Assembly: GCA_027080315.1 (NCBI GenBank)
Contig: JALWSI010000140.1
Coordinates: 1-5,343, forward strand
DNA from: a bacterium
GTDB taxonomy: Bacteria > Thermosulfidibacterota > Thermosulfidibacteria > Thermosulfidibacterales > JALWSI01
Length of the DNA stretch: 5,343 bases
Direction: 5' to 3'
Part shown: piece by piece, positions 1,841 through 3,667 of the stretch
Numbering within the stretch: the first letter of the stretch is position 1
Layout of the letters: each line of letters opens with the position of its first letter
Notes under the pieces: generated by a model
What the model saw: only the letters and a program-made list of their open reading frames with translations
Databases searched by the model: none
What the model was told of the DNA's origin: nothing
Program-made: the position numbers and the translations under genes

Positions 1841-3667
1841 CTATTCATACAACTCCAAACTAAAGTAGGTGCACTCCCATTTCCCATTAGGATCCAAGTC
1901 AGTAAGGTCATCTTTCACCGTAGCTGGAACAACCAAAGTGTAGAACCAGTACGTGGTGTCTAGATAGATGTTTTGATTAAGAAGAGGATCCTTCAGGTTG
2001 AAGGGTGGGATAACCTCTTCATCCACGTTGTCTTGAACGTTCTTTTTCCAGGGTTTTATTGTGTTGGACTCCGTCATAAGCTCAAAATGTCCATCACTGT
2101 TCAAGAAGTAAAGATCATTATGATAGTTGCCACACTTGTCGGTGTATGGGATCTGAATGGCAACATAGATATTAACGGCAAGGGGATTGCCAGAGCTATC
2201 TGTGTACTGGGGAAAGCTTAAAGAGAGTTTCATGGTTTTCCCCTTGGTGGTAGCCACCTCGCCTACCCCAACATAAATCCCATTGGCTGGATCTGGATCG
2301 GTTTTGGGTTTCTTTATTACAACCACTCTATCGTCCCCAGATGGCAGTTCATTGGTGAATCTCTCTCCACCTCCCTGGTAAGCCAAGGTGGAGATATAGG
2401 TGTTCTCTCCACTTGCCATTAGTCCCGTAACAACCACCACTGAGTCGTCTGGGGTCACCGCCACGGATTTAGCGTACTCGTCGTTTGAAGACGTTGTAAG
2501 GGCAGCCCACTTAATATTCCCTCCCGAGGTATCTTTGGATTCCACAAAGATGGTTCGATAATTGTAATCAACTCCATCGTAAGAATAACCTGTAACTATC
2601 ACATTGTCAGACGAGTCAATGACCATGGAAGAAACCCTATCTCTATAGTCTTCGCTGCCATCCTGCAAAAACCATTTAACAGTCCCATCCGAACCAAACT
2701 TGACAACAAAGAAATCATCGCTGTTATACTCATAGTATCCCGCTACATAGATATTCCCATCGCTGTCCAAAGCAAGCGTAACGGGATGATCGTTCACCTT
2801 CATATCATTCATATCAAACCACTTAGCCCACTTTAAGTTGCCATCAGAATCGTACTTTAACAGTAGAGTATCATTATCTCCTCTGCTTGCATTCACAGCC
2901 TCCGCCAACACATACACATTGCCGCTACCATCTATTGCCACATCTACGGCCCTTGATTGATTGCCGGTATTGTACAGCTTACTCCACTTCTCATTTGTGT
3001 AATCGTAAACAACAGTGATAATTCCAGAGGTTGTGGCATTTTGAGTATTACCCACCACAACCAGATAGCTGGTGTTTGCCGCAACCCCAACCGCCGTACA
3101 GTTGTAACTTGTACTCCCTTTCTCTTTTATCATCTTCTGGGTTCCGTCATCCTTGAATACCGCTGTCTTGATGTAGAGGTAAGTTCCGTTGTAGGCGGTT
3201 CCCGTCACTATTCCTAAACCTGCTGCAGCGGCAACATCAACTATTCCTCCCTCTGCATATGAGCCATCCCCGTAATCCACAGTCTTTGGAAAATGCGAGT
3301 CTTTGTTTCCTTCAGAATCGTAGAGTGTGATTATACCCGTATTGTTGCCTGTTCCATTGGCCAAGGTACCACCCAAAAAGATGTTCGCTCCATCAGTGGC
3401 AAGCCCTCTTAATGTTCCATCAGGGAGATCGGTAACGGTGGTAGCATCCCCATTTGTAGCATTGTAAAGAACCATGGTGAAAGATCCGGTTTTGGTCCCC
3501 GCTACTGCAACCATACCATTATTGGCTGCCACTGCATATACGGGATTATCGCTGCCGCTAACGTTATTTGGCCCCCACAAAACATCTCCCTCTGCTGCTA
3601 ACGCTCCCCCAGAGTACAGGGCCAAAAAAACCGCAGCAAACACCAACAACATTACTTTTCTGTACAT
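1841..3667 (-). CDS. Secreted SBBP-type beta-propeller protein with C-terminal beta domain
   Basis: This is a complete 608-residue exported protein. MYRK followed by a hydrophobic stretch and GGALAA (20-25) is a signal peptide, probably cut after residue 24 or 25. Residues 43-431 hold about eight repeats with the plan 'x-V-x-V-A-x-D-x-x-G-N-x-Y-V-x-G ... K-Y-D-x-D-G-N-x-K-W', the form of SBBP beta-propeller repeats. The second half fits best: DGSGN (246-250), DSDGN (301-305) and DSSDN (351-355). A beta-rich C-terminal domain (about 461-608) contains Cys512 and Cys598, which could form a disulfide. Its pattern (alternating strands, LYFLNSDGHFEL, a late TYWFYTLVV strand) resembles C-terminal domains I associate with secreted proteins of delta-proteobacterial relatives; that link is a recollection, not a search result. 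Acidic, Asn/Gly-rich content suits an extracellular, perhaps calcium-binding, protein. Eleven N-x-S/T sequons occur before residue 268 and none after. The ATG at 3667 is preferred over the GTG at 3670 because its distance from the AGGAGG site is 6 rather than 3 bases. The ligand and role are unknown. Confidence 0.88.
   Translation of the reverse strand: MYRKVMLLVFAAVFLALYSGGALAAEGDVLWGPNNVSGSDNPVYAVAANNGMVAVAGTKTGSFTMVLYNATNGDATTVTDLPDGTLRGLATDGANIFLGGTLANGTGNNTGIITLYDSEGNKDSHFPKTVDYGDGSYAEGGIVDVAAAAGLGIVTGTAYNGTYLYIKTAVFKDDGTQKMIKEKGSTSYNCTAVGVAANTSYLVVVGNTQNATTSGIITVVYDYTNEKWSKLYNTGNQSRAVDVAIDGSGNVYVLAEAVNASRGDNDTLLLKYDSDGNLKWAKWFDMNDMKVNDHPVTLALDSDGNIYVAGYYEYNSDDFFVVKFGSDGTVKWFLQDGSEDYRDRVSSMVIDSSDNVIVTGYSYDGVDYNYRTIFVESKDTSGGNIKWAALTTSSNDEYAKSVAVTPDDSVVVVTGLMASGENTYISTLAYQGGGERFTNELPSGDDRVVVIKKPKTDPDPANGIYVGVGEVATTKGKTMKLSLSFPQYTDSSGNPLAVNIYVAIQIPYTDKCGNYHNDLYFLNSDGHFELMTESNTIKPWKKNVQDNVDEEVIPPFNLKDPLLNQNIYLDTTYWFYTLVVPATVKDDLTDLDPNGKWECTYFSLELYE
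2378..3541 (-). repeat. About eight beta-propeller blades
   Basis: Blades read by eye, in residues from the ATG at 3667: 43-74, 86-121, 143-178, 192-233, 240-284, 295-333, 345-388 and 399-431. Spacing is about 45-55 residues. Blades 5-7 carry the Asp-x-x-x-Asn loop and blades 5-6 end in K-W. Blades 1-4 keep the hydrophobic strand pattern but lose most of the Asp loop. The exact count (seven or eight, with a shared closing blade) needs modelling. Confidence 0.7.

Follow-up and report, generated by a model that had tools for sequence, protein, structure and literature searches.

Eleven N-x-S/T sequons in the first half of a secreted beta-propeller protein probably reflect recurring hairpin loops and chance

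The window, meaning the whole 5,343-nucleotide stretch of bacterial DNA analysed here, carries on its minus strand a gene (1841..3667, stop codon included) whose 608-aa product, recognised by Pfam SBBP and by NCBIfam matches below cut-off, is a secreted beta-propeller of the SBBP type that has roughly eight blades followed by a C-terminal module specific to the lineage. The PF06739 (SBBP) match reached 41.1 bits (E 1.7e-10) and passed the gathering score of 20.5, with only one repeat stretch of the propeller scoring. A signal peptide was predicted for aa 1-25 (3593..3667, minus strand) from the sequence (K/R, a hydrophobic run and ALA-A) and a heuristic classifier. About eight blades occupy aa 25-436 (2360..3595, minus strand), as suggested by the repeat parse, the SBBP match and a weak single-sequence model. 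Eight repeats were counted by eye within these residues, consisting of V-x-V-x-G, a hairpin, a hydrophobic strand, a D-x-D-G turn and a W-containing strand, and the single-sequence AlphaFold2 model, used as a strand hint only because its mean pLDDT of 41 is too weak for propeller closure, contains a run of beta hairpins at aa 192-376. The repeat signature, the V-x-V-x-G strand, the D-x-D-G turn, the W-containing strand and secretion are common to the SBBP propellers (PF06739; LipL53, NF047494; delta-60, TIGR02608), whereas the present protein bears an unnamed C-terminal module (aa 437-608; 1844..2359, minus strand), scores 66 bits against a cut-off of 400 for the LipL53-type SBBP lipoproteins, remains under the cut-off for the delta-60 repeat and, with a signal peptide ending in ALAAEG and no Cys, lacks the lipobox of the LipL53 type. 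The downstream neighbour (785-1768) encodes a secreted 327-aa protein with two domain copies (WHLRWQS..KK.RFSGT...), for which the only match was a sub-threshold one to the RimP-C SH3 domain.

Numbered from the ATG at 3667, eleven N-x-S/T sequons run from 3565 down to 2867 on the minus strand, all inside blades 1-5 (aa 25-270; 2858..3595). N35-V-S (3557..3565) is followed by N69-A-T in the second hairpin of blade 1 (3455..3463), N104-G-T and N108-N-T in the recurring hairpin of blade 2 (3338..3358), N160-G-T in that of blade 3 (3182..3190), N189-C-T (3095..3103), N198-T-S (3068..3076), N210-A-T in the recurring hairpin of blade 4 (3032..3040), N236-Q-S (2954..2962), and N259-A-S and N265-D-T in that of blade 5 (2867..2893). 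Seven of them are N-x-T and four N-x-S. The sites listed in the first-pass annotation proved exact on recount, as did its statements that sequons cease after residue 265 and that none has an acidic residue at -2: the protein has 23 Asn up to and including 265 and 24 beyond, with no sequon among the latter, and the -2 residues from N to C are P, L, L, T, A, S, A, T, T, A and G (acidic, 0/11). The cluster itself is therefore a confirmed observation.

The count over the whole mature protein is unexceptional (11 observed vs 7.4 expected in shuffles of the same protein, P 0.10), and it is the distribution that departs from expectation. Residues 25-270 hold 11 sequons vs 3.9 expected by shuffling (P about 5e-4), the scan-corrected P from shuffles is 7e-4 for the densest 240-aa stretch, and P is 1e-4 for the final 24 Asn, none of which belongs to a sequon. 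Taken separately, neither the sequon-free blades 6-8 (0 vs 1.7 expected, P 0.15) nor the sequon-free C-terminal domain (0 vs 1.7 expected, P 0.16) departs significantly from expectation, and the border falls between blades 5 and 6 rather than at a domain border. With about 1,900 genes, a number estimated from the genome size of 1.84 Mb, a scan-corrected P of 7e-4 implies that about one such protein per genome would arise by chance. Among 632 predicted proteins sampled from the genome, only one surpassed the densest 240 aa of the propeller. This is a right-handed beta-helix protein of 969 aa (G000:C144, 1028-3934) with 25 sequons, 16 of them within 240 aa, located in Asn ladders (NSSFENNT).

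The placement of the sequons follows the repeat. Six of the eleven (104, 108, 160, 210, 259 and 265) share one recurring hairpin, directly after the V-x-V-x-G strand, in blades 2, 3, 4 and 5, and the same hairpin in blades 6-8 reads YEYNSDD, YSYDGVD and MASGENT, each without a sequon. In the model (pLDDT 41), strands at 201-209, 214-222, 251-259 and 264-272 place Asn210 within a hairpin and Asn259 and Asn265 at hairpin edges. The hairpin carries 5.3 sequons per 100 residues in the propeller of the window vs 1.2 elsewhere (ratio 4.6), and 1.91 vs 0.63 in five paralogues from the same genome (ratio 3.0). A similar bias (1.31 vs 0.50, 2.6-fold) was found in 18 SBBP proteins whose genomes gave no PF02516 match, a status that rests on one Pfam model and includes some incomplete genomes. 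The hairpin is thus sequon-rich in STT3-less genomes too, suggesting that the fold itself tends to place sequons there. However, the maximum per 240 aa was at most 5 in the 22 SBBP proteins compared, against 11 in the propeller, and so the loop habit alone falls short of the density seen here; summed over those 22 proteins, sequons were below expectation (74 observed vs 107 expected).

Neither 60 related genomes nor a collection of named genomes yielded an orthologue of the propeller, and the source genome is the sole member of its family among the genomes searched. Conservation was thus measured on the five paralogues (the closest 31% identical), standing in for orthologues. In their alignment, Asn was retained in 8 of 52 cells at sequon positions vs 25 of 150 at non-sequon positions, and the conservation beyond other Asn that the first-pass annotation had proposed as a check was not borne out among them. 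The closest paralogue also has sequons at three of the hairpin positions (N104, N210 and N259). Across the paralogues, sequons are spread over the full length, including the C-terminal module, which rules out a sequon-free C-terminal half as a rule of the family.

The same annotation had tied glycosylation to the presence of an STT3-family gene in the genome, and such a gene is present. The single PF02516 match above cut-off (G000:C21:4986-7352) encodes a 788-aa PglB-like STT3 that is apparently intact, as judged from its catalytic motifs, and that aligns with Campylobacter lari PglB (2e-27) in several segments spread over the chain. It keeps the chain layout of the bacterial single-subunit oligosaccharyltransferases, the catalytic Asp/Glu residues and WWDYG, with equivalents of D56, R147, the DTD motif, E319 (own E373), R375 (own R430) and R331 (R385). 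In contrast to Campylobacter PglB, it lies far under the cut-off of the NCBIfam PglB equivalog (129.8 bits vs 1300), and no pgl-type cluster was seen in its 9-kb contig, nor beside the PF02397 gene on contig C90. Generic genes for lipid-carrier or undecaprenyl-linked sugars, a type widespread in bacteria, occur elsewhere in the genome (two PF02397, one PF01943). Only known kinds are involved throughout, an SBBP propeller in the window and, outside it, a gene resembling PglB. Within the order, PF02516 occurs in the genome's own family and in family f3 (2/3 genomes) and was not detected in family f2 (0/5). The relatives of this STT3 found in named genomes belong to thermophilic Desulfurobacteriaceae, Thermodesulfobacteriota, Aquificota and Desulfurella, most of them without an R331 equivalent. 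In PglB, the acceptor's acidic residue at -2 is held in place by R331 together with R147 (PMC8479172). Nevertheless, the PglB of D. gigas is relaxed, glycosylating N-x-T and accepting A-Q-N-A-T, yet it retains the R331 equivalent (PMC4894442), and this residue was consequently dropped as proof of an acceptor rule. Literature searches on N-glycosylation in Thermodesulfobacterium and on the acceptor rules of PglB/Desulfovibrio yielded nothing beyond PMC4894442.

Sequon use across predicted secreted proteins was counted on contigs totalling 540 kb (discovery) and 301 kb (hold-out), with a home-made gene caller and a signal-peptide rule that admits some false members. In the 66 predicted secreted proteins of the 540-kb sample, N-x-S/T occurred 112 times vs 113 expected (mirror motif, 106 vs 114), compared with 0.91 of expectation in cytoplasmic proteins of that sample, and plain N-x-S/T was not enriched in the 108 predicted secreted proteins of both samples (186 vs 178.5 expected, O/E 1.04). 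N-x-T overall was 1.27-fold over expectation in the predicted secreted proteins (mirror, 1.06). By comparison, D/E-x-N-x-T reached 11 vs 6.2 expected in the secreted proteins of the discovery sample (z 2.0), where many motifs were inspected, and 7 vs 3.4 in the hold-out (z 2.2, Poisson P 0.06); for the 108 proteins together, these small numbers gave 18 vs 9.4 expected (P 0.008), with a ratio of 0.81 in cytoplasmic proteins. Controls, comprising the mirror motifs and the D/E-x-N-x-T context with Q, S, G or D replacing N, remained near 1. This excess points weakly to an acidic bacterial sequon, which is absent from the propeller. Moreover, methyl-accepting chemotaxis proteins hold up to 7 sequons per 240 aa in their signalling half, which is cytoplasmic. 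Dense runs there and in the beta-helix ladder (16) indicate that such runs occur where sugar is unlikely.

Taken together, the sequon run is probably a product of recurring polar hairpin loops and chance rather than the mark of a sugar coat. Asn/Gly/Thr/Ser-rich hairpin loops, repeated from blade to blade, would supply most of the sequons, with the hairpin after V-x-V-x-G bearing N-x-S/T in blades 2-5 and turns that lack the motif in blades 6-8, and the sequons outside this hairpin would be due to chance. Of the two readings offered in the first-pass annotation, the one invoking Asn/Thr-rich loops is favoured by the concentration of six sites in one hairpin and by the same bias in STT3-less genomes, although the density of the run and the sequons shared with the closest paralogue at N104, N210 and N259 speak against loops as a full account. 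Pure chance, with the propeller at the far end of the distribution over about two thousand proteins and no loop bias needed, would agree with the one such protein expected per genome and with the unremarkable whole-protein count; it is nonetheless the most doubtful of the explanations considered, since a single repeat position holds 6/11 sites and the loop bias was found independently in other genomes.

The other reading of the first-pass annotation, a glycosylated outer half, gains from the STT3 gene but loses from the lack of sequon conservation among paralogues and from plain sequons standing at expectation in predicted secreted proteins. In its general form, several or all of the eleven sites would be N-glycosylated in the periplasm or at the surface by the STT3, which would work as a relaxed oligosaccharyltransferase, and the propeller would bear sugar on one side. 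The alignment of the enzyme with C. lari PglB, its catalytic equivalents, the generic lipid-carrier genes and the 1.27-fold N-x-T excess, set beside a propeller with seven N-x-T sites among its eleven, are in favour, as is the precedent of D. gigas PglB, which modifies N-x-T despite its R331 equivalent (PMC4894442). Against it, D/E-x-N-x-T is the most enriched type in predicted secreted proteins, whereas no propeller site has an acidic -2 residue, and we consider this form unlikely. A bolder version, in which an orphan relaxed PglB-type enzyme of a deep-branching bacterium places up to eleven N-glycans on the recurring hairpins along one side of the propeller, appears more doubtful still. The STT3 probably prefers acidic sequons (D/E-x-N-x-T), and the propeller sites, which conform to N-x-S/T in 11/11 cases and to D/E-x-N-x-S/T in 0/11, would for this reason be unglycosylated. 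Glycosylation of these sites is therefore possible, albeit less likely than an effect of loop composition.

The propeller thus cautions that the Asn-rich turns of repeat proteins can yield runs of sequons with no sugar required. The PglB-type STT3 and the weak but replicated D/E-x-N-x-T excess in predicted secreted proteins are worth keeping in mind and, if confirmed, would provide a further example, beyond the Campylobacter group, of N-glycosylation at acidic sequons. Were the acidic-sequon preference true, the propeller would also be a ready test protein for the skipping of plain sequons.

The C-terminal module, which is free of sequons in the present protein and contains them in its paralogues, is about 170 aa long and has no Pfam name. 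The genome has about ten copies of it, carried by propellers and by a papain-like protease, with copies on contigs C216, C95, C109, C147 (twice), C90 and C3 of the source genome (G000) in addition to that of the window (recurring part, 1844-2353). The module is nearly absent from the 60 relatives, with one weak match, and the papain-like protease that bears it also has a lectin-like domain. It could represent a lineage-specific surface or sorting module.
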